A DNA stretch of 39,036 bases from Bacteroidota bacterium. GTDB lineage: Bacteria; Bacteroidota; Bacteroidia; Chitinophagales; Saprospiraceae. The position numbers and the translations under genes were made by a program. Below, piece by piece: positions 9,312-35,670 of the stretch. The notes under the pieces were generated by a model. That model saw only the letters and a list, made by a program, of their open reading frames with translations, ran no database searches and was not told the DNA's origin. How positions within the stretch are numbered: position 1 is the first letter of the stretch; every line of letters starts with the position of its first letter. Location of the stretch: NCBI GenBank assembly GCA_963169325.1, contig CAUJEY010000034.1, positions 1 to 39,036 on the forward strand. The letters are read 5' to 3'.

Positions 9312-11226
9312 ATTTCAACTTTTTCCGGAATTCGGCGATCTTTTTGGGAAGGAAGCCGAGCCATACGCGATGTCGCTGGCCAGGCGCTTCGGCGAGGTGA
9401 AGGTCTTGGGTATGCCGCGGCCGGTGCCGTTATTGAGCCTTTACGTTCGAGCCAATATTCTGGAAAAAATCACCTCCCGGATCGGCGCCACCGTGGAGGA
9501 GATGGAAAAAGCATTCGATTTTGATCGCCGGCCGTTTGGAAAACGGCAGGAAACCAAAGATGGAGAAGAGATCGTCAACCAACTAGAGAAATTCATTGTC
9601 CTGGGCAAGCCTGGCGCCGGCAAAACTACCTTCCTGAAATACCTCACCCTGTCCATTCTCCATGCCGAAACCAAAATCCAAAAACGTCGCCTGCCCATAT
9701 TCATCACCCTGCGCGATTGGGCCGACCGCCGCACCAACCTGATGGATTATATCGCCGGCCAGTTCGATATCAACGGATTCGAACAGGCCGGGCCTTACAT
9801 CGAACGCGCGCTCAAATCGGGCAAGTGCCTGGTTTTTTTTGACGGGCTTGATGAAGTCAGTCAGGAAGCCAATATAGACGGCATCACTCGCGACATTCGT
9901 GATTTCACTGACAAGTATTCTGATAATCAATTTATTATCAGTTGCCGAATTGCAGCGTACAACCATTCATTCGACCAGTTTACCGATGTTGAGATTGCTG
10001 ATTTCAATGAAAAACAAATTGAGGCCTTTGTCGGCAATTGGTTTCACTATAATCTGGATAAAGCCCAAGAATGCTTGCAACACTTGAAGGCCAGTTCACA
10101 ATTTCAGGAATTGGCAACGGTCCCTCTACTGCTTACCTTGTTGTGCATGACGTATGAAAATAACAATGAATTTCCTCAACGTCGCGCCTCTTTGTATCAG
10201 GAGGCGCTAAAGGTGCTTTTGGAGCAATGGGACGAAAAAAGACCCGGAGGGCGGGTCAAGCGGGATGAAATCTACAAAAACCTCTCCGTGGAGAATAAAG
10301 AAGCCTTGCTCACTCGTATTGGTTACGGGACATTCCTTGAAAATCAATATTTCATCGAAGAAGATCATCTGGCTAAAATGATCCAGAATTTTGTAAAAAA
10401 TTTGCCGCAATATCAAGAGGAGAAGGTATTACCTGACGGCGCCCACATTTTGAGGCAAATTGAGGCACAGCATGGAATTTTAGTTCAGCAAGCCAAAGGA
10501 GTTTACTCGTTTGCGCACTTGACGTTCCAGGAGTATTTCACAGCAAAACACATTGCGGATCATAATTTGAACGAAACACTGGAAAACCTTGTACAGGAGC
10601 ATTTATACGATGACAAATGGAAGGAAGTGTTTCTCCTTGTGGCTGGTATGCTCCACAATGCCAGCGAATTGTTATTGTTGATGCTGAAAATAAATCGGAA
10701 ATTGCTACAAGTGCCTAAACTAAATGCATTGATGAGAATGGTCGCGAAAGCGCTTTTGCCTGTAGAAAGTAAATATACTAATATCGCTCGAAAATGTTTA
10801 GTAATTATTCTTGCAATTTCCCCTGGTCATCGGATTCGCAGAGATATCGCAATTTTAGGTTTCGCGCGTGGCCCATATGTTGCCCTTTGTTTTGCGCATT
10901 CGGCTACTTCACCTACCCTTAAAATTAAACACAAGATTAACCCTATTCGAAAAAGCAAAAACAATCAAGACCAGCCGACTGACAGTGAACTTATAGATTC
11001 TTATCTCCGTGGCGATCCATCCGTTGATTTGGCTGACGAAATGGGCCTTAATCTTGATCTTATAGACGCGAATGTACCATCACCTGAATTAAATTCACAG
11101 ATTGCGTCTTTCCTCTCTGGCAACATACTCATCGCCCAATGCCTCTCCTCCGCCGCCTACCTCTCCAAACCCACCCGCGAGCACGTCCTGAGTAAGATGC
11201 TGGCGCCGCTGGAGGAGGGGGAGTAA
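9301..11226 (+). CDS. Soluble NACHT NTPase (NACHT3)
   Basis: 641 residues from the ATG that overlaps the end of NACHT2 (ATGCCGAATGA). Walker A is GKPGAGKTT (102-110) and Walker B LVFFDGLDE (177-185). A sensor region SCRIAAYNH and the C-terminal NACHT motif FAHLTFQEYF (about 400-410) are present, followed by about 230 mostly helical residues that may serve as sensor. No membrane helix is evident, and the N-terminal ~90 residues hold only the usual linker seen between a fused effector and the NACHT domain. The effector is therefore either separate or lost. It belongs to a different NACHT branch from the two upstream genes. Operon position suggests the three work together, which is inference. 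Confidence 0.85.
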   Translation: MPNEFQLFPEFGDLFGKEAEPYAMSLARRFGEVKVLGMPRPVPLLSLYVRANILEKITSRIGATVEEMEKAFDFDRRPFGKRQETKDGEEIVNQLEKFIVLGKPGAGKTTFLKYLTLSILHAETKIQKRRLPIFITLRDWADRRTNLMDYIAGQFDINGFEQAGPYIERALKSGKCLVFFDGLDEVSQEANIDGITRDIRDFTDKYSDNQFIISCRIAAYNHSFDQFTDVEIADFNEKQIEAFVGNWFHYNLDKAQECLQHLKASSQFQELATVPLLLTLLCMTYENNNEFPQRRASLYQEALKVLLEQWDEKRPGGRVKRDEIYKNLSVENKEALLTRIGYGTFLENQYFIEEDHLAKMIQNFVKNLPQYQEEKVLPDGAHILRQIEAQHGILVQQAKGVYSFAHLTFQEYFTAKHIADHNLNETLENLVQEHLYDDKWKEVFLLVAGMLHNASELLLLMLKINRKLLQVPKLNALMRMVAKALLPVESKYTNIARKCLVIILAISPGHRIRRDIAILGFARGPYVALCFAHSATSPTLKIKHKINPIRKSKNNQDQPTDSELIDSYLRGDPSVDLADEMGLNLDLIDANVPSPELNSQIASFLSGNILIAQCLSSAAYLSKPTREHVLSKMLAPLEEGE

Positions 11227-11298: not shown

Positions 11299-13023
11299 AT
11301 GGAAGTACTCCTCCTCGCTTTTGCCAACAGCGAAATCAATCCGCTCCCCACGCTCCGGGAAGAGGATGACAAAACCCACGCCATCCTCGGCGAACGGGTC
11401 GCGCGCGACGATTTCACGCTCGTCCGCGAACAGTATGCCGATCGGGAGAAAATCGTGGCTGCACTGAAACAATACCGGAACGATATCGCCCTGTTTTGGT
11501 ACAGCGGCCATGCCGGCCGCGACCGGCTGGAGTTGGAGGATGGATCGGCGCATGCCGACGGTATTGCCGCATTGCTGGGGGCCTGCCCCAAGTTGAAATT
11601 AGTCGGCCTGAACGGTTGCTCTACCCGCGACCAAGTGACGGCCCTGATCGGCAAAGGTATCCCGATGGTCATCGCAACCACCGCCCCGGTGGGCGACCAG
11701 ACGGCTACACAGTTTTCAATCGCCTTTTTTACAGAACTATCCAAAAACCGGCGTTCCGTCCGGGAGGCTTTCCAACTGGCCGTAGATACCGCCAGGGTGT
11801 ATGGAAAGATCGACGCCGTGATCCGCAGTATCGGGCTGGAGCAGACGGCAGGAAATCCGGTTTGGGAATTGATTTACGCCGAAAAAGACGCCGACCTGCT
11901 CGATACCTGGCGCCTGCCGGAAAATCAACCGGCCACACCCGTGAACCAATACCTGCATAACGCCCTGAACCTGCTGTATAAAACGCAACGAAAACCCGAC
12001 GAAAAAGCGGATACCCCCATCGACGAACTCCTCAAGAGCCTGCCTTTCACCATCAGCGAGCCGATCCGGAAACTGCTATCGCCCCGCGATAAATCCGAGC
12101 AGGTGTTCTACGACCGCCCCTCCCCGGAACGGTACCGCATGTTGTTATACGCCTACCGGAGCATAGGCAATTTCCTGACGTTCGCCTTACTGAGCCATCT
12201 GTGGAAAATCCGGTCTGCAGGGGCAGCCCTGACCGGCCTCGACGGGATTTGGGATGATTTCCGCCTTTGGTTGGGCGCCGATTTCCGGGCCGACGAAAAA
12301 CGCTCCATGATGCCGATGTTCAACCGCCTGGTGACTGTATTCAAGGCCAACGAGGTTCCCTACTTTTTCCCGGACCTGGAAAAATCCCTCCAGGATATGG
12401 AAAAACCCCTGAACCGGCAGGCGTTTGAATTTCTCGAACAAAAGTTGCAGGAACCTGCCGGAACCCGAAATGAAAACTGGGACAGGCTGTGTGATGATAC
12501 GGAAAAACAACTCGCGCTGGTGTTGTACTGTTTCGGGTTTTTATTCCGCTACACCCTCACCTCGGTAAAAGATATTGATGTCTTGTTTTACCTGCACAAC
12601 CGGAAGGCCACTTTTGAGCACACGGTCGTGCGTTTGCAACAGCAAATGTCCGGCATGCAAGACAACAAAGAGATGCACGAGCATTACCTGAATACGGCAG
12701 CGGTGTTGTTGCGTCATATATCAGATCAAAGCATGGAATTATACGTGTCGCCATTTATCATTGATGAAAATGCGTACACCCATACCTTGAAGGCCAATCC
12801 ACGTTTTTGCATCGCTTATGACAAACGCAACCAGCATTTTTATTTTAAAAGCGTCTCCAAGCCGAATGATGACATTTTAAAAATCAAAGAACAATTACCC
12901 ATCGAAGAGCTGATTATTATGGGTGAAGCCCCGGATGGCGACGACGATTTTTTCCCCCTCATTCACGGCCAGTTTTCGGCATTCTGTGATACCGTGTTTG
13001 GCAAAACCCTCGATGACCTATGA
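11299..13023 (+). CDS. CHAT-domain caspase-like protease (CHAT1)
   Basis: 574 residues. The N-terminal ~190 residues form a CHAT (caspase HetF-associated with TPRs) peptidase. The catalytic His71 is in FWYSGHAG and Cys107 in GLNGCSTRD, each after a hydrophobic strand as in caspase-fold clan CD enzymes. The remaining ~380 residues are helical and unassigned, possibly a regulatory or adaptor part. Its stop codon overlaps the start of STAND A by 4 nt (ATGA), so the two are translationally coupled and probably act as effector and sensor. In related conflict systems CHAT proteases are activated by STAND partners and cut a cellular or pro-effector target; the substrate here is unknown. It is about 95% identical to the protein at 20252-21982. 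Confidence 0.88.
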   Translation: MEVLLLAFANSEINPLPTLREEDDKTHAILGERVARDDFTLVREQYADREKIVAALKQYRNDIALFWYSGHAGRDRLELEDGSAHADGIAALLGACPKLKLVGLNGCSTRDQVTALIGKGIPMVIATTAPVGDQTATQFSIAFFTELSKNRRSVREAFQLAVDTARVYGKIDAVIRSIGLEQTAGNPVWELIYAEKDADLLDTWRLPENQPATPVNQYLHNALNLLYKTQRKPDEKADTPIDELLKSLPFTISEPIRKLLSPRDKSEQVFYDRPSPERYRMLLYAYRSIGNFLTFALLSHLWKIRSAGAALTGLDGIWDDFRLWLGADFRADEKRSMMPMFNRLVTVFKANEVPYFFPDLEKSLQDMEKPLNRQAFEFLEQKLQEPAGTRNENWDRLCDDTEKQLALVLYCFGFLFRYTLTSVKDIDVLFYLHNRKATFEHTVVRLQQQMSGMQDNKEMHEHYLNTAAVLLRHISDQSMELYVSPFIIDENAYTHTLKANPRFCIAYDKRNQHFYFKSVSKPNDDILKIKEQLPIEELIIMGEAPDGDDDFFPLIHGQFSAFCDTVFGKTLDDL

Positions 13024-15989
13024 ACCCCACGCCCAGTCCGTTCAAGTTTTTAGAGCCTTTCACCTTTGCCGACCGAAAGAATTTTTTCGGACGCGATAAG
13101 GAGGTGGAAACCTTGTACCGTGTTGTTCAACGTACGCCTTTACTGCTCCTGTATGGTCTTTCGGGCACCGGCAAAACCAGTCTGGTACAGTGCGGCCTGG
13201 CTGCCCGCTTCGACGGTCCCGATTGGCTGCCCCTTTGGATCCGGCGCGAAGACGACTTCGTCCGCTCTTTGCACAAAGAGATCGACGGGGCATTCACCAC
13301 CCCGGTCCCTGCCGGCGCCGGCGCCCCGGAAAAGATACAGGCCTTATACCGCCAATACCTGCGCCCGGTATTCCTGCTGTTCGACCAGTTTGAGGAACTG
13401 TTCATCCTGGGCGACGCAACGGAGCGCAATGCTTTCGTGGGCGAGATAAAAAACATCCTGAAGGCCGGCCTGCCTTGTACCATCCTGCTGATCATCCGCG
13501 AGGAATACCTCGGGCGTTTGTATCCGCTGGAAAAAGACATTCCCAATCTGTTCGATTTTCGGATGCGGGTGGAGTCTATGGACACCACCAACGTGACCAA
13601 GGTACTTACTGATTCGTTTGCCAACTTCAACATCCAACTCGAAGCGCCGGCCGAAACGCGTATCGGAGAAATCATCACGAACATTCGCCTGAAGGATACC
13701 CCGGTGGAGTTGCCGCATCTGCAGGTGTACCTCGACCGGCTGTACCGGGAAGATTTTGCCCGCACCTATCCAAACGGAGCAGACTCCCCCGAAGGCGCCT
13801 GGCCGCCGCTGGAATTTACAAAGGCTGAAATCGCCGACTTCGGCACGATTGAAAACGTGCTGGATGAGTTTCTGCGGGAGCAACGTAGACTAATTCAGGA
13901 GCAGTTTGAAAAAAACTTTCCGAGCGAGTCCGGCACCGAATATGCCGTGGATCGTGTATTGGCCGCATTTGTGTCGGCAGAGGGCACCAAACGCCCCATC
14001 AGCGTAGCAGAAGAGGCGGGAGGGCTTGTCATTGCCCCGCGCCAGCGGGATTTGTTCCCGGCACTTTCGCCAGAGGCCCTTTCCTGGTGTATCAAGCAGC
14101 TGGCGCAGTCGCGTATCCTGCACTCCAGCGGTGCCAGTTACGAACTGACGCACGATACCCTCGCCACCGCCGTGGAGCGGCAGCAAAACGCCGAACAGAA
14201 ACAACTGTCAGAAGCCCGCCACCGCATCGAGCTGGGTTACAAAAACCACCTGGACACCAATGGCCAATCCTTTATTGACCAGGCGATGCTGATCCGCCTC
14301 GAACCGCTCTTGCCGAAGTTGGACCTGCCTAAAGAATGGGCGGAGTTTGTAGAAAATAGTATTAAAGAGGTCAAACGGCAGGCGGACCTGGAAAACGAAC
14401 GGCAACGGCAGGAACGTGAAAGAATCCGGCGCGGCAAGCGACGCAATTTGGTAGTAGGGCTACTTGCCTTTGCGCTCCTGGGGTTTGCATTTTGGCAGAT
14501 GAAAGCCGCTGGAGATGCCGTTGAACTGGCCGAACAAAAAACCCATGCCGCGGAGTTAAGCGACTCCTTGGCCGGAATTGAAAAAAGAAATGCCGACACC
14601 GCTACCGGTTTAGCCCTGGCCGCTAAAAACGAAGCGGCTCAAAAAGAAAAAGAAGCAGCCACTGCGCAAGCGGCCGCTCGAATCGCGGAAATAAAGGCAC
14701 AAGATGCCATCAAACAATCTGGTGTAGATTCCGAAAAGGCCCGGCTTGCGGCAATCGAAGCAGAACAAAAAAAGCAGGAGGCAATTGAGGCAACACAGGT
14801 AGCTGAAAATGCTAAACTGGAGGCGCTAAAAGCTGCGGAGCAAGGTGTGGTGGCAATGCTCACTGTTGCCAATAATGCCATCAAACAACTAAACTACACT
14901 GAAGCCTCCGAAGCCGTCAACGCCGCCGTACGGCTGGAAGCCGGCAAGCCCGAAGTAGCCAATGCCCTGCTCGAAATGGCCTTTTTTCACAACCATACCG
15001 GCGATTGGAAAATCGCCGCGAAAGAAACTGCCACGGCTGCCCGCTGGTTGGGCAAGCCGGAACTGGCGACGCAAGCAGAGCGGGTAGGGAGCGGTAACGC
15101 CCTGCGCGCGTTGCGCCGCTTGCAGGAAACCCTGGCGCCGGCCCGCTTTGCCGATCTGGACAGCCTCTATTTCCCGAAAATGGTGGATATAAAAGGCGGG
15201 ACCTTCATACCGGGTTGTATAAAATCGGAAGATTGCGAGGAAAAAGATTCACTCTACCAGGCGACACTCTCCGATTACCAACTGGCCCAAACGGAAACTA
15301 CCGTATTTCAATACCATCTCTACACCACGGCCCTGGGCCGGCGCATCGGGCAGCGCATCACGCCGGCAGATACTTTAGAGGAGTATGATCCACCTACCTG
15401 GGGCTGGGTGTACGACCATCCGATTATTAATGTCAGCTGGTACGATGCCGTGGAATACGCCAACTGGGCCAGCGAACAACAAGGATTTACGCCGGTGTAT
15501 GACATCGTGAAAACGGAGCGTGATCCAGACAATCAGCATTCCGGAGATCAATACGGTTGGCTCGTGCGCATCCGGGAAGCCGCCAACGGCTACCGCCTGC
15601 CCACGGAAGCGGAATGGGAATTCGCGGCCCGGGGCGGCGTACGGCAGGATACATTCCAAAACGCCTCCGGCAGCGATGATCTGGACGAAGTTGCGTGGTC
15701 GTACTCAAACAGTGGCAGTCGCACGCATACCGTGGGCGGTAAAAAGCCGAATTCCCTGCAATTGTACGACCTGAGCGGCAACGTGTGGGAGTGGTGTTGG
15801 GATTGGTACGGCGATTATCCGGAAAAACCGGAAACGAATTATCGGGGAGCGTCTTCCGGGAGCAGTCGCGTACTGCGGGGCGGTTCGTGGTACGACGATG
15901 GTTTCATCGATCGCCTGGCTTTGCGGAATAGGATATATCCGATTGATCGGGACTACTACGTCTGCGGTTTTCGCGTTGCCCGGCACTAA
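13020..15989 (+). CDS. nSTAND ATPase - TM - coiled coil - FGE/C-type-lectin-like sensor (STAND A)
   Basis: 989 residues. An nSTAND1-type P-loop NTPase opens with the LEPFTFADRKNFFGR box; Walker A is GLSGTGKTS (46-54) and Walker B FLLFDQFEE (118-126). A single transmembrane helix (about 476-494) is followed by an Ala/Glu/Lys-rich coiled coil (about 495-615). The C-terminal FGE-sulfatase-like domain (about 719-989) shows YRLPTEAEWEFAARGG, LSGNVWEWCWDW, SRVLRGGSW and CGFRVARH. The two cysteines needed for formylglycine-generating catalysis are not at the expected C-terminal positions, so it is probably a ligand-binding version of the fold. Unlike STAND B and C, its terminal segment shows no nucleotide-level sign of templating by the same repeat. 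Coupled to CHAT1 by ATGA overlap. Inferred topology: NTPase and effector inside, sensor outside. Confidence 0.87.
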   Translation: MNPTPSPFKFLEPFTFADRKNFFGRDKEVETLYRVVQRTPLLLLYGLSGTGKTSLVQCGLAARFDGPDWLPLWIRREDDFVRSLHKEIDGAFTTPVPAGAGAPEKIQALYRQYLRPVFLLFDQFEELFILGDATERNAFVGEIKNILKAGLPCTILLIIREEYLGRLYPLEKDIPNLFDFRMRVESMDTTNVTKVLTDSFANFNIQLEAPAETRIGEIITNIRLKDTPVELPHLQVYLDRLYREDFARTYPNGADSPEGAWPPLEFTKAEIADFGTIENVLDEFLREQRRLIQEQFEKNFPSESGTEYAVDRVLAAFVSAEGTKRPISVAEEAGGLVIAPRQRDLFPALSPEALSWCIKQLAQSRILHSSGASYELTHDTLATAVERQQNAEQKQLSEARHRIELGYKNHLDTNGQSFIDQAMLIRLEPLLPKLDLPKEWAEFVENSIKEVKRQADLENERQRQERERIRRGKRRNLVVGLLAFALLGFAFWQMKAAGDAVELAEQKTHAAELSDSLAGIEKRNADTATGLALAAKNEAAQKEKEAATAQAAARIAEIKAQDAIKQSGVDSEKARLAAIEAEQKKQEAIEATQVAENAKLEALKAAEQGVVAMLTVANNAIKQLNYTEASEAVNAAVRLEAGKPEVANALLEMAFFHNHTGDWKIAAKETATAARWLGKPELATQAERVGSGNALRALRRLQETLAPARFADLDSLYFPKMVDIKGGTFIPGCIKSEDCEEKDSLYQATLSDYQLAQTETTVFQYHLYTTALGRRIGQRITPADTLEEYDPPTWGWVYDHPIINVSWYDAVEYANWASEQQGFTPVYDIVKTERDPDNQHSGDQYGWLVRIREAANGYRLPTEAEWEFAARGGVRQDTFQNASGSDDLDEVAWSYSNSGSRTHTVGGKKPNSLQLYDLSGNVWEWCWDWYGDYPEKPETNYRGASSGSSRVLRGGSWYDDGFIDRLALRNRIYPIDRDYYVCGFRVARH

Positions 15990-16116
15990 AATGACCCTTT
16001 TTTTCTTTTACCCCCGAGGTCTCGGGGCAGGCTCTTTTACCCTTTTTTTATCTCTGGCGCGCAGCGCAACCGATCCAAAACTACACTCTTTTCACTTCGC
16101 CACCATCGAAAACGCC

Positions 16117-17169
16117 ATGCTGGAACCCTCATCCGAAATCAGTAAAATCGTAGCCGACCTCAAAACCGGCCACGCCGCCCTCATCCTCGGCCCCGAAATC
16201 TTTGACGTCGACGGTACCTCCATGCAGCGCTATGTGCGGCAAAAGATCGAACAGCAGTTCGCTGACCAGATCGCCTCGTACTACGAACGCGACGGCTTTT
16301 TCATCATCAAAAATCAGGACGACAAGCCCGAAATCGCCGAAGCCGTCGCCGACCTATACCGCGGCCTGCGGCCCAACGAAGCCGTGTTGCAAAAGATCAT
16401 CGAGATTCCCTTCCCGCTGGTGGTGTCGGTGAATCCCGATACCTTTCTGACCGACCTGGCCTTCCGGCTCGGCGTAGCGCACCGTTTTTCGGCGTTCTAT
16501 CCCAACATGCCCGAAGACATCGAAACGCCCACGCGCGAAGTGCCCCTGTTCTACAATGTGGCCGGTTGCGTGGCCCGCGAATCTTCCTTGCTGCTCGACT
16601 ACGATGACTTGCTGCGCCTGCTCGAAGGCATGCTCTCGGCGCCCAAACTGCCCGAGCGCCTGCGCAACACCCTGGGCGATACCAAATCGTTCCTCTTCCT
16701 CGGCTTCCAGTTCGACCGTTGGCACACCCAACTGCTGCTGCGCCTGCTCAACATGCGCCAGGCCGTACGCCGCATCGCCACCAAAACGGCAATGCCCGAC
16801 GACGACACCCAGGCTTTCCTGCTCAACCAGTTCAAGATCAAGTTCCTCGGCGCCGACCGCGACCTGCTCGACGAACTCCACCAAGCCTGCGACGCCGAGG
16901 GTTTGCTGCGCCACACCAGTCCGCCCGGCAGCGCCCAGCAGGGCGACGTCATCTACTTTTTGCAAAAAGGCAACGTGGAAAAAGCGGCTGAAAAACTGCT
17001 TACCGCTGCGCAAAAAACCGCGCTGGCCGACGAGGCCACCTTGCTATCCGGCCAGGTCAATGCACTGCTGACGGAAAAGCCCAACCTCGACAGCCGCGAC
17101 TTCTTCCCACGTCAGAACAAACTGGCCGACACCATCCTCCAACTTGCCAAACAACTGCCCGCCGTATGA
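16117..17169 (+). CDS. SIR2-like effector with C-terminal EAD-like domain
   Basis: The open frame extends into STAND A, but the ATG at 16117 gives a clean 350-residue protein. Residues 1-215 resemble the SIR2_2 fold: HAALILGPEI at the nucleotide-binding start, LVVSVNPDTFLTD (101-113), VPLFYNVAGC (142-151) and FLFLGFQFDRW (192-202). SIR2-like proteins in defence systems commonly hydrolyse NAD+, but I cannot confirm a catalytic His/Asn pair here. Residues ~275-350 form a helical tail whose LLSGQVNALL...RQNKLADTILQLAKQL pattern resembles the EAD-like segment of NACHT1. The stop overlaps the STAND B start (ATGA). It occupies the place CHAT has in the other cassettes, so effector swapping is inferred. 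Confidence 0.78.
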   Translation: MLEPSSEISKIVADLKTGHAALILGPEIFDVDGTSMQRYVRQKIEQQFADQIASYYERDGFFIIKNQDDKPEIAEAVADLYRGLRPNEAVLQKIIEIPFPLVVSVNPDTFLTDLAFRLGVAHRFSAFYPNMPEDIETPTREVPLFYNVAGCVARESSLLLDYDDLLRLLEGMLSAPKLPERLRNTLGDTKSFLFLGFQFDRWHTQLLLRLLNMRQAVRRIATKTAMPDDDTQAFLLNQFKIKFLGADRDLLDELHQACDAEGLLRHTSPPGSAQQGDVIYFLQKGNVEKAAEKLLTAAQKTALADEATLLSGQVNALLTEKPNLDSRDFFPRQNKLADTILQLAKQLPAV

Positions 17170-19949
17170 AAGTGTATCGCTATCCCGGTGTTCGGCCTTT
17201 CCAGGCCGCCGACAAAGCCCTGTTCTTCGGCCGCGACCGCGACATTGCCGACCTGTACGAAATGGTACGGGCCGAGCGGCTGGTCGTGCTGTTCGGCAAA
17301 TCGGGCTACGGCAAATCGTCGTTGCTCAATGCCGGCGTATTGCCCCGCCTCGCGGGGGCGATGACTCCGGTGGAGGTGCGTCTGGGCGAGTATATCGCCG
17401 GCCAAAGTTTTCCGCCGGTGGAAACCCTGCGGCGTAAAGCGCCGGTTCAACGCAAATTAAAACCCGGCACGGCCTTCCTCGCCGACCTGCCGCCCACCCT
17501 GTGGACCCATTTCAAACAACTCGACAGCGCCGAAAAAGGCAGTTATCTGCTGGTGTTCGACCAGTTCGAGGAGTTTTTCTCCTACCCGCCCGAGCAGCAG
17601 CGCGACTTCCGCGACCAACTCGCCGACCTGCTCAACGGCGAACCGCCCGAGGCCCTGCGCGAAGCCGCCCGTGCCCTCGACCGCGAGCAGCGCCGCCTGC
17701 TCACCGCTCCCATGGACATTCGGGTGCTGTTCGCCATCCGCTCCGACCGGATGCATGAACTCGACCGGCTCAAAGATCGCCTGCCGGCCATTCTGCACAA
17801 ACGTTATGAACTCAAAGCGCTCAGCCGCGAGCAGGCGCGGGAGGCCATTATTGGCCCGGCCGCCCTCACCGATCCCCGGCCCGATCTGCGCGAAGGCCGT
17901 ATCACCATGACGCCCATGAAGGACCAGTGGGCGTTTGCTTCTCCGCCGTTTGAATACAGAGAAGACGCCTTGACGAAAATTTTAAATGGCCTGGCCGTAT
18001 CCAACACCGCGCAACAATCCGGTGTGGAAGCCTTTCAACTGCAAATCCTGTGCGATAGCATCGAAAACAAAGTAGCCGAAGGCAGTGTGCCCGACCGCGA
18101 CGGCAACGGCCTACCCGACGTAACGGCCGACGACCTGCCCGATTTCACCGAAGTATTCGCCCAATACTACGAACGGCGCCTCTCCCTGTTGCCCGAAACC
18201 GAGCGCGCCGCCGCCCGCCGCGTGATTGAAGACGGCCTCGTACGCTACGACCCCTTCACCGACGAAGGCCGCCGCCTCAGCGTCGACGGCCAGGCCCTGC
18301 TGAAAGACTACGAAAACATCGGCCTCAATCCCGACCTGCTGCGCGAACTCGAAAACACCTTCCTCGTCCGCCGCGAACCCAACACCCTCGGCGGACACAA
18401 CTACGAACTCAGCCACGACACCCTGCTGGCGCCGGTGGTGCGGGCAAAGAAAAAGCGTATGGCGGAGGAGGAGGAGCAGCGGCAGGGGGAAGCACTCGCC
18501 GCCGAAGAAGCCCGCATCGCCCGCGAAAAAGCGGATGCGCAGCGGCGGCAGAAGCGGGCGCTGTATACGTCGGTGGTGGCGGGGGTGTTGGTGCTGGCGG
18601 CCGTGGGGGCGTCGGTGTTTGCGTATCAGCAATCAAAAAAGGCTGCGGATGCTACCGAACTGGCTAACCAAAAAACCCGCGATGCAGAAGCAAGCAAATT
18701 GGAAGCGACAGCCCAAAGGGAAGAAGCCGAACAAAAAACATTCGCCGCGGATGAAGCAGACAAACGCGCCAAAAGAAACGAGGAAATAGCCGCCCTCGAA
18801 CAGAAAAAAGCGCGAACCGAACAGGAAAATGCCCGCTTGATGCAACTTAAAGCCGAACGCGCCGCTGAGCAGGCCGCGATTGCCCTTATAGACGCTGCCC
18901 GCAGAGACATTCTGCAACTTCATTACGACGCCGCTTTTTCAAAAATGAAAAACGCTGCCGGCCTCGGCTCGGTGAAAGACAGCGTAGCGTTTGAACTCAT
19001 GGAAATTGCTTTTTTCCGCCACCATGCCGGGCAATCCGATCAGGCAGCGGAGCCGCTCTCGATGGCTGCCAAATTGCTGGGGAAGCCGGGTGTTTCGGCT
19101 GACGCCGACCTTGAAGCGGCACTGAAGCGATTGGATATACAACGTGATTCTTTTTTGCGTGCCCGGTATTTTACCGCCATGATTCCCTTGAAAGGCGGTA
19201 CCTACCAAATGCAGGGCGAATTCGAAACCACAGTGCCCGGTTTCCACATGGCCGAAACCGAAACCACCGTATGGCAATACAATCTCTTTTGCCAGGCCAT
19301 CGGTCGCGATATTACCCAACGGATAGGGCGGGACGGCAAAACGCTGGAGGAGGAAAAATACCAACCCTCCTGGGGCTGGATCGGCAACAACCCGGTAGTG
19401 TATGTCAACTGGTACGACGCCGCGGAATACGCCGACTGGCTTAGCCGGAAAATGAACCGCACACCCGCTTATGACATCAGGCCGGATGAAAAGGACTCTC
19501 TGAATACCTCCGACTATGACGATTTTAAATGGACGGTCACCCTGCGCGAAAATGCCCGAGGCTACCGGCTGCCCACTGAGGCGGAATGGGAATACGCCGC
19601 TAAGGGCGGCGCCCAGCACGATACATTTAAGTACAGCGGCAGCGACGAGATTGACGAAGTGGCCTGGTACTATTATAATAGCGACAGCCGAACGCAAGCG
19701 GTAAGAGCCAAAAAAGCCAACGGCGCGGGACTTTACGACATGAGCGGAAATGTGTTTGAATGGTGTTTTGACTGGCGTGGCGGCTTGCCTGCCGAAACGC
19801 CCCGGGGGCCGAAAAGCGGTTCGCGCCGTGTTCTTCGCGGCGGGGGTTGGTACGACGACGCGGGCTACTGCCGCCCGGCGCACCGCCACGACTCCGACCC
19901 GGACTTCCGCACCGGCCGCTATGGCTTCCGCCTGGTTCTCCTCCCGTAG
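17166..19949 (+). CDS. nSTAND ATPase - TM - coiled coil - FGE-like sensor with DGR-type variable tip (STAND B)
   Basis: 927 residues. The nSTAND1 module starts YRYPGVRPFQAADKALFFGR; Walker A is GKSGYGKSS (44-52) and Walker B LLVFDQFEEFF. A transmembrane helix (about 465-490) precedes a coiled coil rich in Glu, Lys and Ala (to about 590). The FGE-like domain (about 670-927) has YRLPTEAEWEYAAKGG, MSGNVFEWCFDW and RVLRGGGW, and ends YGFRLVLLP. Only one of the two catalytic FGE cysteines is in place (GYC; the residue five later is Arg), arguing for binding rather than formylglycine formation. Its N-terminal half is only distantly related to STAND A and C, although the TM region resembles C. The final ~33 codons form a candidate DGR variable region. 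Coupled to the SIR2/EAD effector by ATGA. Confidence 0.88.
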   Translation: MKVYRYPGVRPFQAADKALFFGRDRDIADLYEMVRAERLVVLFGKSGYGKSSLLNAGVLPRLAGAMTPVEVRLGEYIAGQSFPPVETLRRKAPVQRKLKPGTAFLADLPPTLWTHFKQLDSAEKGSYLLVFDQFEEFFSYPPEQQRDFRDQLADLLNGEPPEALREAARALDREQRRLLTAPMDIRVLFAIRSDRMHELDRLKDRLPAILHKRYELKALSREQAREAIIGPAALTDPRPDLREGRITMTPMKDQWAFASPPFEYREDALTKILNGLAVSNTAQQSGVEAFQLQILCDSIENKVAEGSVPDRDGNGLPDVTADDLPDFTEVFAQYYERRLSLLPETERAAARRVIEDGLVRYDPFTDEGRRLSVDGQALLKDYENIGLNPDLLRELENTFLVRREPNTLGGHNYELSHDTLLAPVVRAKKKRMAEEEEQRQGEALAAEEARIAREKADAQRRQKRALYTSVVAGVLVLAAVGASVFAYQQSKKAADATELANQKTRDAEASKLEATAQREEAEQKTFAADEADKRAKRNEEIAALEQKKARTEQENARLMQLKAERAAEQAAIALIDAARRDILQLHYDAAFSKMKNAAGLGSVKDSVAFELMEIAFFRHHAGQSDQAAEPLSMAAKLLGKPGVSADADLEAALKRLDIQRDSFLRARYFTAMIPLKGGTYQMQGEFETTVPGFHMAETETTVWQYNLFCQAIGRDITQRIGRDGKTLEEEKYQPSWGWIGNNPVVYVNWYDAAEYADWLSRKMNRTPAYDIRPDEKDSLNTSDYDDFKWTVTLRENARGYRLPTEAEWEYAAKGGAQHDTFKYSGSDEIDEVAWYYYNSDSRTQAVRAKKANGAGLYDMSGNVFEWCFDWRGGLPAETPRGPKSGSRRVLRGGGWYDDAGYCRPAHRHDSDPDFRTGRYGFRLVLLP
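19824..19922 (+). other. Candidate DGR variable region (VR) of STAND B
   Basis: The region aligns without gaps to 24931-25029 of STAND C. In the 24-codon core (19851-19922) 25 of 72 bases differ, in 15 codons, all non-synonymous. The other nine codons are identical base for base. Twelve changed codons end in C in both genes and are explained by an AAC template with both adenines randomised. Two third-position changes (GGC/GAG, CGC/CTA) fit template adenines (GAA, CAA). Outside the core, the only difference in the preceding 27 bases is CGC/GGC, again explained by AGC. This is the adenine-mutagenesis pattern of DGRs at the position they usually target in C-type-lectin folds. Confidence 0.82.
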
Positions 19950-20112
19950 TCAGTTGGCAGCTCATCCCGGCTTTACATTTGAGCAAGAGCGCGTTGGCGA
20001 GAAAAAAGGAGGATGGAGGGAGGGACGACCGACTGCGCCTTTTTTTGAGGCAACGAGCGTTTTTTACCTTACCGCCTTGGGCGGTCGAAACAAAAAAGGG
20101 CAGCCCGCCACC
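19947..20112 (+). repeat. Post-VR conserved untranslated segment, copy 1
   Basis: The first 52 bp, beginning at the STAND B stop codon, are identical to 25054-25105. After a more divergent spacer, about 73 bp (20040-20112) match 25148-25221 with one substitution. It includes a small perfect hairpin ACCGCC-TTG-GGCGGT at 20071-20085. The 302-bp gap before CHAT2 holds this segment and the CHAT leader but no gene. Confidence 0.9.
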
Positions 20113-20212
20113 CCAACGGGCATCTTTACTTAAGCCGAAAAATTACTTAACAGTAGAATTCGGCAAGAAAGCCCTCCGTGCCCAACCCACGCAAAAATAT
20201 CCCCACAACCCC

Positions 20213-20220
20213 TATATTTA
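20213..20220 (+). promoter_or_regulatory. Candidate -7 element of the CHAT2 cassette
   Basis: TATATTTA lies 31 bp before the CHAT2 start, in the leader shared with CHAT1. It matches TAnnTTTG except for the last base. Confidence 0.35.
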
Positions 20221-20251
20221 CCCCGCGCCTATTCAATCCGCCCAAGCCACT

Positions 20252-21982
20252 ATGGAAGTACTCCTGCTCGCTTTCGCCAATAGCGAAATCCATCCGCTCC
20301 CCACGCTCCGGGAAGAGGACGACAAAACCCACGCCGTGCTCGGCGAGCGGGTCGCTCGCGACGATTTCACGCTCGTGCGCGAACAGTACGCCGGCCGGGA
20401 GAAAATCGTGGCCGCGCTGAAACAATACCGGAACGATATCGCCCTGTTTTGGTACAGCGGCCATGCCGGCCGCGATCGGCTGGAACTGGAGGACGGATCG
20501 GCGCATGCCGACGGTATCGCCGCATTGCTGGGTGCCTGCCCCAAGTTGAAATTGGTCGGGCTGAACGGTTGCTCTACCCGCGACCAGGTGACGGCCCTGA
20601 TCGGCAAAGGCATCCCGATGGTCATCGCAACCACCGCCCCGGTGGGCGACCAGACGGCTACACAGTTTTCAATCGCCTTTTTTACCGAACTGTCCAAAAA
20701 CCGGCGCTCCGTCCGGGAGGCTTTCCAACTGGCCGTAGATACCGCCAGGGTGTATGGAAAGATCGACGCCGTGATCCGCAGTATCGGGCTGGAGCAAGAG
20801 CAGACGGCAGAAAATCCGGTTTGGGAATTGATTTACGCCGAAAAAGACGCCGACCTGCTGGATACCTGGCGGCTGCCGGAAAATCAGTCGGTTACACCCG
20901 TAAACCAATACCTGCATAACGCGCTGAATCTGCTTTATAAGACACAACGAAAACCCGACGAAAAAGCGGATACCCCCATCGACGAACTCCTCAAGAGCCT
21001 GCCTTTCACCATCAGCGAGCCGATCCGGAAACTGTTGTCGCCCCGCGATAAATCCGAGCAGGTGTTTTACGACCGCCCCTCCCCGGAACGGTACCGCATG
21101 TTGTTATACGCTTATCAGAGCATCGGCAATTTCCTCACGTTTGCCTTACTGAGCCACTTGTGGAAAATTCGGTCCGCCGGCGCCCCACTGACGGGCCTCG
21201 ACGGGCTTTGGGAAGACTTCCGCCTTTGGCTGGGCGCCGATTTCCGGGCCGATGAAAAACGCTCCATGATGCCGATGTTCAACCGCCTGGTGACTGTATT
21301 CAAGACCAACCGGGTTCCCTACTTTTTCCCGGAACTGGAAAAGTCCCTCCAGGACATGGAAAAACCCCTGAACCGGCAGGCATTTGAATTCCTCGAACAA
21401 AAACTGCTGGAACCGGAAGGGACCCGAAATGAAAACTGGGACAGGCTCTGCGATGACACGGAAAAACAACTCGCGCTGGTGTTGTACTGTTTCGGGTTTT
21501 TATTCCGCTATACCCTCACCTCGATAAAAGATATCGATGTATTGTATTTCCTGCACAACCGGAAGGCCACTTTTGAGCATACGGTCGTGCGTTTGCAACA
21601 ACAAATGTCCGGCATGCAGGACAACAAAGAGGTGCACGAGCATTACCTGAATACGGCAGCAGTGTTGTTGCGTCATATATCAGATCAAAGCATGGAACTA
21701 TACGTGTCGCCATTTATCATTGATGAAAATGCGTACACCCATACCCTGAAGGCCAATCCACGTTTCTGCATCGCTTATGACAAACGCAACCAGCATTTTT
21801 ATTTTAAAAGCGTCTCCAAGCCGAATGACGACATTTTAAAGATCAAAGAGCAATTACCTATTGAAGAACTGATAATCATGGGAGAAGCCCCGGATGGCGA
21901 CGACGATTTTTTCCCCCTCATTCACGGCCAGTTTTCGGGATTCTGTGATACCGTGTTTGGCAAAACCCTCAATGACCTATGA
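20252..21982 (+). CDS. CHAT-domain caspase-like protease (CHAT2)
   Basis: The start is set at 20252 because sequence and reading frame from there match CHAT1, giving 576 residues; the open frame upstream runs through the post-VR segment and is not coding. His71 (WYSGHAG) and Cys107 (LNGCSTR) are conserved. It differs from CHAT1 by roughly 25 substitutions and an extra Glu-Gln near residue 180. The substitutions spare the catalytic motifs, so both copies look active. It overlaps STAND C by 4 nt (ATGA). Role as in CHAT1: candidate protease effector released or assembled by the partner STAND. Confidence 0.88.
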   Translation: MEVLLLAFANSEIHPLPTLREEDDKTHAVLGERVARDDFTLVREQYAGREKIVAALKQYRNDIALFWYSGHAGRDRLELEDGSAHADGIAALLGACPKLKLVGLNGCSTRDQVTALIGKGIPMVIATTAPVGDQTATQFSIAFFTELSKNRRSVREAFQLAVDTARVYGKIDAVIRSIGLEQEQTAENPVWELIYAEKDADLLDTWRLPENQSVTPVNQYLHNALNLLYKTQRKPDEKADTPIDELLKSLPFTISEPIRKLLSPRDKSEQVFYDRPSPERYRMLLYAYQSIGNFLTFALLSHLWKIRSAGAPLTGLDGLWEDFRLWLGADFRADEKRSMMPMFNRLVTVFKTNRVPYFFPELEKSLQDMEKPLNRQAFEFLEQKLLEPEGTRNENWDRLCDDTEKQLALVLYCFGFLFRYTLTSIKDIDVLYFLHNRKATFEHTVVRLQQQMSGMQDNKEVHEHYLNTAAVLLRHISDQSMELYVSPFIIDENAYTHTLKANPRFCIAYDKRNQHFYFKSVSKPNDDILKIKEQLPIEELIIMGEAPDGDDDFFPLIHGQFSGFCDTVFGKTLNDL

Positions 21983-24900
21983 ACCCCACGCCCAGTCCGT
22001 TTAAGTTTTTAGAGCCTTTCACCTTTGCCGACCGAAAGAATTTTTTCGGGCGGGGCAAGGAAGTGGAAACGCTGTACCGTGTTGTTCAACGTACGCCTTT
22101 ACTGCTCCTGTACGGTCTTTCAGGCACTGGAAAAACCAGTCTGGTACAGTGCGGCCTGGCTGCCCGCTTCGACGGCCCCGATTGGTTGCCCCTTTGGATC
22201 CGGCGCGAAGATGACTTCGTCCGCTCTTTGCACAAAGAGATCGACGGGGCATTCACCACCCCGGCCCCGGCCGGCGCCGGCGCCCCGGAAAAGATACAAG
22301 CCTTATACCGCCAATACCTGCGTCCGGTATTCCTCATGTTCGACCAGTTTGAGGAACTGTTCATCCTGGGCGACACAGCAGAGCGCAACGCATTCGTGGG
22401 CGAGATAAAAAGCATCCTGAAGGCCGGCCTGCCCTGCACCATCCTCCTGATCATCCGGGAGGAATACCTGGGGCGTTTGTATCCCCTGGAAAAAGACATC
22501 CCCAATCTGTTCGATTTTCGGATGCGGGTGGAGCCTATGGACACCGCCAATGTGACTAAGGTACTTACCGATTCGTTTGCCAACTTCAATATCAGCCTCG
22601 AAGCGCCGGCAGACAAGCGCATCGGAGAAATCATCGAAAATATTCGCTTAAAGGATTCCCCGGTGGAATTGCCGCATCTTCAGGTGTACCTCGATCGGCT
22701 ATACCGGGAAGATTATGTCCGTACCTATCCTAACGGGGCAGACTCACCCGAAGACACGTGGCCGCCCCTGGAATTTACAAAGGCTGAAATTGCCGACTTC
22801 GGCACGATTGAAAACGTGCTGGATGAGTTTCTGCTGGAGCAGCGCGGACTGATTCAGGTGCAGTTTGAAAACACCTTTCCGGGCGAGTCCGGCACCCAAT
22901 ATGCGGTGGATCGTGTATTGGCCGCCTTTGTGTCGGCAGAGGGTACCAAACGCCCTATTAGCGTAACAGAAGAGGCGGGCGGGCTCGTCATTGCCCCGCG
23001 CCAGCGGGCTTTGTTCCCGGCACTTTCCCCAGCGGCCCTTTCCTGGTGTATCAAGCAGCTGGCGCAGTCGCGTATCCTGCACTCCAGCGGCGCCAGTTAC
23101 GAACTCACACACGATACCCTCGCTACCGCCGTGGAGCGGCAGCAAAACGCGGAACAGAAACAACTGTCAGAGGCGCGCCGCCGTATAGAACTGGGTTACA
23201 AGGATCACCTGGACACCAATGGTCAATCCTTTATCGACCAGGCGATGCTGTTCCGCCTGGAACCGCACTTGCCGAAGTTGGACCTGCCTAAAGAATGGGA
23301 GGAGTTTGTGGACAACAGCTATAAGGAGGTGAAACGGCAGGCGGATGCCGAAAAAGAGCGGGTGGAGCGGGAACTGCGGCTGGCCGAAGAAAAACTTGTT
23401 GCAGAACGAAAGCAACAAGCGGCGGAGCAGGAACAACAAGCCGAAAGGCTAAGGCTAACCGAAGAGATGCTGGCCAAGGAGGCGCAGGCGCGAAAACGAC
23501 AGCGATTTTTTACGCGGCTGGTGGCCGGCGTGGCGGTGCTGGCGATTGGGGCGAGCGTGTTTGCTTTTTTCAAACAAAAGCAGGCGACGGAAGCGAGTAG
23601 CCTGGCTGAAACGCGCAGGCTTGAATCGGAGGAAAATTTGAAGTTAGCAAATAAAAATGAGCAAACTGCCAATAAAGCGAAGGCCGAGGCCGAGCAAAAC
23701 CTGGCTCTGGCTAAGAAAAACGAAGAGAAAGCCAGGGATGCCCTCGCACAAGCCGACCAGAATTTGATTTTGGCCAAAAAAGAGGAAGCCAAGGCAAAAT
23801 CTGCCCTCGAACAGGTGCAAAAAGAAAAGGCGGCTACCGAAGCACAGCGCAAAATAGCAGAAGATAATTATCGCATTGCGCAACAAAAAACGGTGGAGGC
23901 CGAGACGTCTGCAAAAGTGGCTTTAGATAAAACCAAAGAAGCGGAACGAGAACGCGACAGAGCCGAAACAGCCCGCTTAGAAGCCGAGGGTAATCTCAAA
24001 AAATTTGAGGCAGCCAGCGCCGAAATCGTCGATGCCCTCGTGCGCGAAGCCGACAACCTGATCTACCATCTGGACTATGCCGGGGCTACCGCCAAACTGC
24101 GCACGGCTGCCGACCTCAATCAACCCACAGCCTCTTTCCAAAAGGCCCTGGCGGAAGTCGCTTTTTTCTGGAACGAAGGCGGGCAGACCACACAAGTAGC
24201 CGACTTACTGGCGGTGGCAAAACAAACCGATGCGCCCAAGGAAAAAGCCGGCCTGCAGTCCTGGCTGAAAAAATATGCCGGCCCTTGGCACGACTCCCTC
24301 ATACTGCGCTACTACCCGAATATGCTGCCGGTAGCCGGCGGCGAAGCCAATATTGACGATAAAAAAGCCGCTGTTGGTGCATTCAAAATGGCTCGCACCG
24401 AGACGACAATGTGGCAATATGCCTTATTTTACACCTCGCAAGGGAACGATATGCGCGCCAATAAAGACCTTTCCTCCCTGAGTTGGGGCATCAACGGCGA
24501 CAACCCGGTGGTGTACGTTTCCTGGTTCGATGCGGCCCTGTACGCCAACTGGCTCAGCCGGCGCTTCGGGCTGCGGGAAGCCTACAAGATGGGCGAAGTA
24601 TCAAAAGGCGATTATGGCGATTACTATAAAAATATCGCCCTGGACAGCTCCTCCAACGGCTATCGCCTGCCCACCGAAGTGGAATGGGAATACGCTGCGC
24701 GGGGCGGCGCGGCGCAGGAGAACTTCAGATATCCAGGCAACAATGAAATAGATAGTGTCGGTTGGTACTCTGGTAACAGCGGAAACCGCACGCGCCCGGT
24801 AGCGACGAAACAAGCCAACAATCTTGGCCTTTACGATATGAGCGGCAACGCGTGGGAACGGTGCGGCGATTGGCATGGCGAGTATCCGGCTACTTTCCCG

Positions 24901-25056
24901 GCGAACTACCGTGGCCAGGAGACGGGTTCGGGCCGTGTTCTTCGCGGCGGGGGTTGGCGCGGCAGCGCGGAGGGCTGCCTACCGGCGTACCGCAGCGGCA
25001 GCAGCCCGGACTACCGCACCTTCTACTGTGGCTTCCGCCTGGCTCTCATCCCGTAG
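21979..25056 (+). CDS. nSTAND ATPase - TM - long coiled coil - FGE-like sensor with DGR-type variable tip (STAND C)
   Basis: 1025 residues. Residues 1-455 are about 90% identical to STAND A (Walker A GLSGTGKTS 46-54, Walker B LMFDQFEE). The chain then diverges into a longer charged helix, a transmembrane helix (about 510-530, LVAGVAVLAIGASVFAFF) and an extended coiled coil (about 535-685) with repeating A-E-Q-N-L-x-L-A-K-K-N/E motifs. The FGE-like domain (about 780-1025) has YRLPTEVEWEYAARGG, MSGNAWERC and RVLRGGGW, and ends CGFRLALIP. The C-terminal half is closer to STAND B than to A, so the gene is a mosaic. The last ~33 codons are the second candidate variable region. Coupled to CHAT2. 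Confidence 0.88.
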   Translation: MNPTPSPFKFLEPFTFADRKNFFGRGKEVETLYRVVQRTPLLLLYGLSGTGKTSLVQCGLAARFDGPDWLPLWIRREDDFVRSLHKEIDGAFTTPAPAGAGAPEKIQALYRQYLRPVFLMFDQFEELFILGDTAERNAFVGEIKSILKAGLPCTILLIIREEYLGRLYPLEKDIPNLFDFRMRVEPMDTANVTKVLTDSFANFNISLEAPADKRIGEIIENIRLKDSPVELPHLQVYLDRLYREDYVRTYPNGADSPEDTWPPLEFTKAEIADFGTIENVLDEFLLEQRGLIQVQFENTFPGESGTQYAVDRVLAAFVSAEGTKRPISVTEEAGGLVIAPRQRALFPALSPAALSWCIKQLAQSRILHSSGASYELTHDTLATAVERQQNAEQKQLSEARRRIELGYKDHLDTNGQSFIDQAMLFRLEPHLPKLDLPKEWEEFVDNSYKEVKRQADAEKERVERELRLAEEKLVAERKQQAAEQEQQAERLRLTEEMLAKEAQARKRQRFFTRLVAGVAVLAIGASVFAFFKQKQATEASSLAETRRLESEENLKLANKNEQTANKAKAEAEQNLALAKKNEEKARDALAQADQNLILAKKEEAKAKSALEQVQKEKAATEAQRKIAEDNYRIAQQKTVEAETSAKVALDKTKEAERERDRAETARLEAEGNLKKFEAASAEIVDALVREADNLIYHLDYAGATAKLRTAADLNQPTASFQKALAEVAFFWNEGGQTTQVADLLAVAKQTDAPKEKAGLQSWLKKYAGPWHDSLILRYYPNMLPVAGGEANIDDKKAAVGAFKMARTETTMWQYALFYTSQGNDMRANKDLSSLSWGINGDNPVVYVSWFDAALYANWLSRRFGLREAYKMGEVSKGDYGDYYKNIALDSSSNGYRLPTEVEWEYAARGGAAQENFRYPGNNEIDSVGWYSGNSGNRTRPVATKQANNLGLYDMSGNAWERCGDWHGEYPATFPANYRGQETGSGRVLRGGGWRGSAEGCLPAYRSGSSPDYRTFYCGFRLALIP
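24931..25029 (+). other. Candidate DGR variable region (VR) of STAND C
   Basis: Counterpart of 19824-19922; the randomised core is 24958-25029. Invariant codons keep the fold (Cys, Pro, Ala, Arg, Pro-Asp, Arg-Thr positions), while the changed ones carry Arg, Gly, Ser, Glu, Tyr, Phe and Cys in place of STAND B residues. The flanking GGGGGTTGG on the left and GGCTTCCGCCTGG on the right are identical in both genes. Confidence 0.82.
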
Positions 25057-25221
25057 TCAGTTGGCAGCTCATCCCGGCTTTACATTTGAGCAAGAGCGCG
25101 TTGGCAAAAAAAATGTGAGGTGGGGGGAGGGACGACCCCCGGCACGCATTTTTTGAGGCAACAAGCGTTTTTTACCTTACCGCCTTGGGCGGTCGAAACA
25201 AAAAAGGGCAGCCCGCCACCC
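25054..25221 (+). repeat. Post-VR conserved untranslated segment, copy 2
   Basis: Begins at the STAND C stop codon and repeats the segment after STAND B, including the ACCGCC-TTG-GGCGGT hairpin (25179-25193). Sequence beyond 25221 is unrelated. The remaining bases up to 25303 show nothing I recognise. Confidence 0.9.
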
Positions 25222-33781: not shown

Positions 33782-33783
33782 TT

Positions 33784-35001: not shown

Positions 35002-35590
35002 AGAACCGTCCGCTCTACGCCCCTTTCCCTCCCACGGGTTGTCATTTTGTAAAAACCTGTCCGCTCTACGAATATTCCCCTCTACGCACTGTCATTTTGT
35101 AAAAAACCGTCCGCTCTACGGGCGCTACGCGATGTAAAAAAAGCCCGTCGTAGAGCGGACGGTTCTCTACAAGATGACAACGTGTAGGAGGGAAAGGGGC
35201 GTAGAGCGGACGGGTTTTTACAAAATGACAACGTGTAGGAGGGAAAGGGACGTAGAGCGGACGGGTTTTTACAAAATGACAACGTGTAGGAGGGAAAGGG
35301 ACGTAGAGCGGACGGTTTTTTACAAAATGACAGTGCTGGGGAAGGAAAGGGCGTAGAGCGGACGGGGTTTTACAAAATGACAGCGTGTGGGAGGGAAAGG
35401 GCGTAGAGCGGACGGGGTTTTACAAAATGACAGTGCTGGAGAAGGAAAGGGGCGTAGAGCGGACGGGTTTTTACAAAATGACAGTGCTGGGGAAGGAAAG
35501 GGCGTAGAGCGGACGGGTTTTTACAAAATGACAACGTGTAGGAAGGAAAGGGCGTAGAGCGGACGGTTTTTTACAAAATGACAACGCGTG
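34992..35590. repeat. Repeat cluster 1: inverted then direct 50-51-bp units
   Basis: Two to three units read on the minus strand (CCGTCCGCTCTACG ... GTCATTTTGTAAAAA, about 34999-35120). After a centre at about 35121-35148 come nine plus-strand units starting CGTAGAGCGGACGG at 35149, 35200, 35251, 35302, 35352, 35402, 35453, 35503 and 35553. Each unit has a GC-rich core, T4-6ACAAAATGACA, and a variable purine-rich spacer (GTGTAGGAGGGAAAGGG or similar). A 51-bp period keeps a frame open, but the frames encode only the repeat. Confidence 0.92.
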
Positions 35591-35630
35591 GACGAGAAAA
35601 AAGGGATGAGTTTGAGCGATTAAATGTTTT

Positions 35631-35638
35631 TATTTTTG
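35631..35638 (+). promoter_or_regulatory. Putative -7 element of the GIY-YIG gene
   Basis: TATTTTTG matches TAnnTTTG. A TTTG 16 bp upstream is closer than usual. If used, transcription starts at about 35643-35646, which favours the ATG at 35671 over 35641. Confidence 0.45.
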
Positions 35639-35670
35639 TGATGTCTTATGACTTTTCAAACAACCTCGCC

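Follow-up and report, generated by a model that had tools for sequence, protein, structure and literature searches.

The window analysed here is a stretch of 39,036 nucleotides (nt) that lies on contig C34 (CAUJEY010000034.1) of the draft assembly of a Saprospiraceae-type bacterium (GCA_963169325.1; 8.07 Mb in 349 contigs, 96.7% complete), and it carries two genes for sensors that resemble NOD-like receptors (NLRs), each ending in a short variable patch. Our interpretation, which we consider probable, is that these sensors are diversified by a diversity-generating retroelement (DGR) not seen in the assembly, and, more tentatively, that this element finds its targets by pairing between a tract of about 18 nt just 3' of its template, here called T', and its reverse complement, a box on the side of the variable repeat (VR), here called T. 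Judged by sequence, the two patches are variable repeats of a DGR for which the draft shows no template, and the feature in the window counts as a DGR target and not as a complete DGR.

Two variable repeats at the ends of diverged genes

Comparison of the two patches, VR1 (19851-19922) and VR2 (24958-25029), gave 25 unlike bases out of 72, spread over 15 of 24 codons, with nine, 14 and two differences at the first, second and third codon positions, nine codons without any difference, and C as the last base of both copies in 12 of the 15 changed codons. The 27 bases 5' of the patches contain a single mismatch (base 19824/24931), and the identity run that begins at the stop codon of both genes measures exactly 52 bases. 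For the bases and codons that differ, the nine unchanged codons and both flanks, our recount agrees with a preliminary description of this DNA, which erred by one in reporting no synonymous change: one of the 15 changed codons, TCC in VR1 and AGC in VR2, encodes serine in both, a pair that is still a possible product of a randomised template AAC. Outside the patch the two genes are strongly diverged paralogues, with 149 identical codons, 150 synonymous and 524 non-synonymous differences among 823 aligned codons, and 402, 352 and 528 differences at the three codon positions. The patch pattern reflects neither chance nor ordinary divergence; a nearly fixed frame with adenine-type changes at the ends of two diverged paralogues is the pattern expected from retrohoming.

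A congener, G040, has a matching template (L065:6694-6828), and the differences from it are concentrated at its adenines: 20 of 35 adenines are changed in VR1 versus 4 of 92 other bases (3 gap positions; Fisher p 2e-10), and 22 of 35 versus 4 of 92 in VR2 (3 gap positions; p 5e-12). The AAC-type template codons that had been predicted from the window are found at most such sites of this template, and in the alignment VRs and template have in common a constant 3' end of the type known as initiation of mutagenic homing (IMH). Gene conversion combined with positive selection on a binding surface, with no DGR involved, would agree with the fact that changes in the patch mostly alter amino acids; the position of these changes at template adenines, in the proportions just given, and the sparing of third positions (2 of 25 differences) speak against it, and we find it scarcely credible, ordinary selection being refuted in the main by the adenine-specific differences from the G040 template.

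A variable protein of the C-type lectin (CLec)/FGE fold, one of the marks of a DGR, is indicated by Pfam, by the closest PDB entry and by the predicted fold. For the FGE domain of target gene 1 (261 residues), the top PDB match by sequence is TvpA (2y3c; 1.9e-38), which is also the top PDB match of Foldseek for the predicted structure (1.7e-21); the AlphaFold model in use was built from 61 sequences, with a predicted local distance difference test (pLDDT) score of 91.5, and an earlier model from 6 sequences was set aside (pLDDT 51). The earlier identification of the gene ends as DGR variable regions is therefore upheld by the adenine-specific pattern, by the RTs (reverse transcriptases) and templates of congeners and by TvpA as top match. 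Further VR-like gene ends of the same genome lie on contigs C130, C134, C307 and C154.

Template and reverse transcriptase

A template and a DGR RT in the same genome, two further marks of a DGR, were not found in the fragmented draft, which was searched for the template with the VR DNA, an inferred template query and the expected T', and for the enzyme with RVT_1 and a congener RT protein. Matches to the expected T' were at chance level (with at most 3 mismatches, 60 forward and 62 reverse, versus 91 and 85 for a backward control), and three of the best were known T boxes on the opposite strand. A position that fits the T pattern, C97:1557, was rejected, the 200 bases before it being without a VR. 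The draft has four RVT_1 matches, which by eye look like group II introns in two cases, a retron-like RT in one and, in the last, an RT near Cas1/Cas2-like open reading frames (ORFs); also by eye, a 341-aa RT frame of this genome (L004, G000:C344) adjoins Cas1- and Cas2-like ORFs.

A search of 100 relatives with the congener RT gave a match of some kind at 1e-5 in 49 of them, many of those listed being just a VR, a template or another RT. DGR-type RTs and more templates were found in the genus. The search for a template and a DGR RT proposed in the preliminary description thus succeeded in the relatives, which have both, and failed in the draft of the organism itself. That one shared template feeds both VRs, as was also claimed there, is something we infer, though the template was not found in the draft. 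The G040 locus has no RT between its template and a stretch matching residues 1-54 of the G018 RT frame, a stretch that is a separate ORF in other loci; the genus thus contains loci with a template only. Loci of this sort, in which no RT adjoins the template, include L065:6694-6961, L135, L134 and L068, and some of them keep the stretch matching residues 1-54, which makes them possible non-autonomous DGRs. In G018 (L066:7476-8723), the template supplies the C-terminal codons of the RT ORF itself.

VR1 and VR2 could accordingly be fossil or orphan repeats that are now drifting, their source DGR having been lost. Such an origin would agree with the failure to find either component in the assembly and with congeners that have template loci without an adjacent RT, such as G040:C256; however, the constant frame is nearly identical despite the divergence of the genes (149 of 823 codons identical), an indication that one template was copied recently, and an assembly in 349 contigs is a fragmented one. 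We consider the loss of the source unlikely, while keeping it in view.

Complementary flanks of template and variable repeat

In the relatives, the flanks of VRs mirror those of templates. In G018, GCTCATAAGTAAAGCCGGA follows the template, and the reverse complement of GCTCATAAGTAAAGCCGGA follows the VR at a distance of 16 nt; in G019, G034, G009 and others the flank sequences differ and the flanks of template and VR still mirror each other. T differs among lineages, and T' changes along with it. Because VR flanks in relatives mirror template flanks, the 52-base identity past the stop codons in the window may matter. It includes, after each VR, a T-like box that reaches an ungapped score of 13 with the T' of G040 (99th percentile of 1000 shuffles, 9; maximum, 11.5; these shuffles, too, preserve only the single-base composition).

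The breadth of this correspondence was examined in a search of genome_contigs with an alignment of nine RTs, which gave 308 relatives; the best 80 were kept, and by record title they come from Saprospiraceae, Chlorobiaceae, Bacteroidales, other Bacteroidota, KSB1, Verrucomicrobia and Anammoxibacter. A script seeking adenine-biased repeat pairs detected VR-template pairs in 72 of the best 80 loci, the KSB1 locus being without any, and usable flanks were available for 95 pairs in 70 loci (3 of 98 pairs had flanks that were too short, and 10 of 80 loci were left out, eight of them without a pair). With a threshold of 9.5, the 99th percentile of shuffles that preserve single-base composition only, T:T' complementarity was detected in 87 of the 95 pairs, and 75 scored above the shuffle maximum of 12; in the control with direct orientation, 5 of 95 pairs reached the threshold. 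Among the pairs that passed, the distance from the VR to the start of T is in most cases 10-20 nt (the full range is larger and begins at -6), and most matched stretches measure 13-22 nt.

To handle kinship, template flanks were grouped into 23 clusters, each represented by one locus. Taking the best-scoring VR of each locus, 19 of 23 own pairs pass against 27 of 506 cross pairs, the own partner is best or tied in 20 of 23, and the mean own score is 14.6, compared with a highest value of 9.5 in 20,000 re-pairings; with the first-listed VR instead, the counts are 18 of 23 own and 29 of 506 cross pairs. The variable middle of T', which could be parsed in 81 of the 95 pairs, is copied exactly in 55 of 81 own VR flanks and in 159 of 5946 foreign ones, counts that refer to sequences and not to independent events. 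In one grouping of flanks, 11 RT-bearing same-locus pairs scored at least 11; two template-only loci (three pairs) were assigned there from the template flank itself, a circular procedure in their case. Eight hand-picked genomes have two or more such DGRs, and in these the template of the same DGR is strictly the best match for 26 of 29 VRs and tied for the other 3, with a small margin in some genomes.

An RT tree was built from 82 rows, of which 61 form a single clade (support of 100 in the Shimodaira-Hasegawa-like approximate likelihood ratio test, SH-aLRT); T:T' is present in 49 of 54 scored rows of that clade and in 0 of 17 outside it; six duplicate loci had been left out beforehand, 10 pairless rows were unscored, and L104 was dropped afterwards, its row being an antisense ORF.

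T and T' could also be the terminal inverted repeats of a mobile cassette of RT and template inserted beside target genes, and in cis loci they do bracket the RT-template block in inverted orientation. Yet VRs that are not just upstream of the template, some of them beyond it, match T' in 30 of 33 cases (those just upstream in 57 of 62), and T-like boxes accompany the VRs of the window, where there is no cassette. A cassette origin is thus very improbable in our estimation.

Another recurrent element of the template flanks, a TGAACAG-like box, is seen in 18 of 23 clusters, mostly about 28 nt after the template, and we regard it as a candidate priming site. No structure was obtained from a consensus RNA fold of the template flanks, and a small hairpin with a stem of at least 3 in 20 of 23 is a weak signal, from a per-sequence scan without shuffle control.

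Control sets and hairpins

Other DGRs were scored in the same way. T:T' was found in 0 of 32 pairs of a viral control (36 loci, including that of Bordetella phage BPP-1) and in 1 of 19 pairs, a T-run, from 16 loci of a second DGR group in the relatives, which were chosen by RT identity and left out others such as the template-only L133, L134 and L136. Nine plasmid DGRs from cyanobacteria, Chlorobiaceae and Proteobacteria (9 of 30 records used) gave 0 of 18 candidate pairs, with a maximum of 8, some of these pairs having ill-placed ends. In BPP-1 itself (L231), the flanks of template and VR have a 9-nt reverse complement with a score of 9, just below the threshold, which may be chance or a T:T' vestige.

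Hairpins 3' of the VR were scanned as perfect Watson-Crick stems with 3-8 nt loops within 60 nt, a procedure that recovers the known 8-bp GAAA hairpin of BPP-1. Stems of at least 7 bp are present in 0 of 95 pairs of the T:T' clade, 9 of 32 viral pairs and 1 of 19 of the second group; stems of at least 6 bp occur in 6 of 95 in the T:T' clade. A hairpin of the BPP-1 type, which is not universal among DGRs, was not found in the VR flanks of the window, where stems reach 3 bp at most. As a separate observation, many loci of the second DGR group and of the cyanobacterial plasmid DGRs (in L113-L132 and L269-L275) have, by eye, VR 3' flanks rich in CCCTTTTACCC-like tracts in place of T boxes or long hairpins; the tracts are perhaps a third kind of target signal.

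Gene neighbourhood

Coordinates are collected in Table 1. The preliminary description had recognised two FGE-like sensor genes, and Pfam gives nSTAND1 plus an FGE-sulfatase domain in both, that is, a STAND NTPase joined to a sensor, as is characteristic of STAND conflict systems. A nearby effector or adaptor, another characteristic, is represented by SIR2_2 and by the EAD11 + NACHT protein, the CHAT match and a second EAD11 being below cut-off. PADLOC matches in the window are weak or partial. The third nSTAND1-FGE gene is perhaps a former target.

Two other features lie towards the ends of the window. Tandem and inverted repeats of about 50 nt at 34990-36227 lie in a type I restriction locus, between HsdS-like (33778-35001) and HsdM-like (36301-37782) ORFs, the HsdR/S/M names being a reading of ORFs by eye, and a small ORF amid them (35578-36000) has a weak match, below cut-off, of the group I intron endonuclease type. 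A tandem repeat with 8- and 16-base periodicity occupies 149-529.

Table 1. Features of the window, with strand and supporting evidence
Feature	Position	Strand	Evidence or remark
EAD11 + NACHT protein	5002..7236	+	Pfam
STAND/NACHT-type NTPase	7266..9311	+	NACHT slightly under cut-off; membrane segments by eye
NACHT protein	9301..11226	+	Pfam; PDC-S60 4.1e-12 (PADLOC)
CHAT-like protein adjoining the sensors	11299..13023	+	Pfam CHAT E 8.2e-4, 19.3 vs 24 bits, below curated cut-off
Third nSTAND1-FGE gene	13020..15989	+	FGE end VR-like, without IMH-like end or T-like box
SIR2-like protein, candidate effector	15898..17169	+	PF13289 2.4e-8; EAD11 PF19964 1.4e-5, 25.4 vs 26 bits, below cut-off
Target gene 1, nSTAND1 NTPase + C-terminal FGE-sulfatase (CLec-type) domain, 927 aa	17166..19949	+	PF20703 6.6e-33, PF03781 4e-40
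VR1 constant 5' end (RVLRGGGW)	19825..19850	+	Identical to 24932-24957; flanking base 19824/24931 differs
VR1 variable codons	19851..19922	+	Adenine-specific differences from G040 template
VR1 constant 3' end, IMH-like, including stop codon	19923..19949	+	2 differences vs VR2; fits G040 template end
Segment 3' of VR1	19950..19984	+	Same after VR2; 1 mismatch after VR-like end on own contig C130
T-like box of VR1	19962..19984	+	Near reverse complement of G040 T'; own T' unseen
CHAT-like near-duplicate between target genes	20252..21982	+	Two 300-nt stretches 95% and 93% identical; no Pfam match of its own
Target gene 2, nSTAND1 + FGE-sulfatase domain, 1025 aa	21979..25056	+	ORF, Pfam
VR2 constant 5' end	24932..24957	+	Sequence comparison with VR1
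VR2 variable codons	24958..25029	+	Comparison with VR1 and G040 template
VR2 constant 3' end, IMH-like, including stop codon	25030..25056	+	Comparison with VR1 and G040 template
T-like box of VR2	25069..25091	+	Identical to VR1 box

Discussion

Even for BPP-1, the route by which the complementary DNA (cDNA) of a DGR reaches its target and is taken up there is described as not fully understood (PMC12875486). In that system, cDNA synthesis is primed by the folded RNA that lies 3' of the template, the cDNA stays joined to this RNA, and homing prefers the orientation in which the lagging strand is copied from the strand complementary to the cDNA (PMC12875486); an element 3' of the VR is needed for efficient homing (PMC3240598).

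The target genes would be NLR-like conflict sensors, in which an nSTAND1 switch is joined to an FGE-fold sensor with a DGR variable repeat as its tip. A DGR outside the assembled contigs would reverse-transcribe its template RNA and randomise its adenines, and the randomised cDNA would overwrite VR1 and VR2. More tentatively, the target could be recognised through a two-part hybrid on the sense strand of the VR, in which the antisense cDNA, tethered to the template RNA as in the BPP-1 model, would pair with the VR, and the RNA tract T' 3' of the template with the box T 3' of the VR. Like the cDNA, T' is complementary to the sense strand, and the order of the two along it is preserved; an exposed sense strand could thus hold the RNA and the cDNA end to end, and from this comparison of sequences we infer that the template RNA may guide the tethered cDNA through T:T' pairing. 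This pairing might replace the hairpin of the BPP-1 type and prevent crossing over between coexisting DGRs. By analogy, the variable sensor tips would recognise changing signals of invaders or kin, as proposed for related systems (Dore 2024, PMC10907252), and would activate the SIR2, CHAT-like or NACHT proteins encoded next to them. Stated generally, a widespread clade of cellular DGRs may use RNA-guided retrohoming, in which a barcode of about 18 nt 3' of the template would pair with a box 3' of each VR, addressing remote targets and separating the DGRs of one cell; for this wider claim we see the balance as even.

The partner of T' could instead be the messenger RNA (mRNA) of the target, as T is on the sense strand just 3' of the coding region and pairing with mRNA is equally possible there. 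Against this, the position of T is tied to the homing site, and in BPP-1 a DNA element important for homing lies about there (PMC3240598); the cDNA likewise pairs with the sense strand (PMC12875486). We think pairing with mRNA improbable, without dismissing it.

Several points weigh against diversification by an unseen DGR that is guided by T:T' pairing. Neither a DGR RT nor a template was found in the draft, and the VRs could be orphans. The VR-like ends of this genome carry two, perhaps three, T types, which implies that more than one template locus is missing from the draft, and in an assembly that is 96.7% complete this counts somewhat against an assembly gap alone. Eight of the 95 pairs are below the T:T' threshold (L166, two; L169, two of three; L181, L208, L218 and L224), and 945 of 3973 cross-locus pairs reach 9.5, commonly among close relatives, so that the 95 pairs represent a much smaller number of independent events. 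The second DGR group has few long hairpins as well, and their lack is then not peculiar to the T:T' clade; hairpins have been predicted for most chromosomal DGRs from unpublished data (PMC3240598). T' is equally complementary to the target mRNA, which keeps guidance at the DNA level presumptive. Lastly, altered primase activity left BPP-1 homing unchanged, a result that the authors call inconclusive (PMC12875486).

No mention of complementarity between template and VR flanks was found in the literature searched, which did not cover the large DGR survey of Wu 2018 (10.1093/nar/gkx1150), nor in the part of Dore 2024 (PMC10907252) that was available, and T:T' provisionally looks like a new target-site element. 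A covarying pair of guide and box in a large DGR clade would be a concrete, testable mechanism. The T box may allow orphan VRs to be assigned to DGRs, T:T' suggests separate addresses for targeted hypermutators, and the immune-like sensors of a Saprospiraceae-type bacterium look as if they are kept variable by such a device.

In group II introns and similar RNA-guided mobile elements, a short RNA tract pairs with the target DNA beside the insertion site; unlike the guide of group II introns, the one proposed here would adjoin an adenine-mutagenised template. With TvpA, the DGR variable protein of Treponema denticola, target gene 1 has the FGE/CLec fold in common, a comparison that covers the 261 residues of the FGE domain only, which in the window ends nSTAND1 proteins of 927-1025 aa. 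The BPP-1 DGR resembles the present case in having an adenine-mutagenised template that rewrites the VR, an IMH-like 3' end and a homing element 3' of the VR (Guo 2011, PMC3240598; PMC12875486). The latter is in BPP-1 an 8-bp hairpin with a GAAA loop, whereas in the relatives' clade T is complementary to T' and no perfect stem of at least 7 bp occurs in 95 pairs. Also close to the window are the DGR-diversified STAND NTPase/FGE systems of multicellular bacteria (Dore 2024, PMC10907252), which, like the window, combine nSTAND1 with a C-terminal FGE variable repeat and EAD-bearing neighbours, and which share several DGR targets per genome, explained there by activity in trans; unlike them, the window has a Saprospiraceae-type host and EAD11 and SIR2 neighbours.

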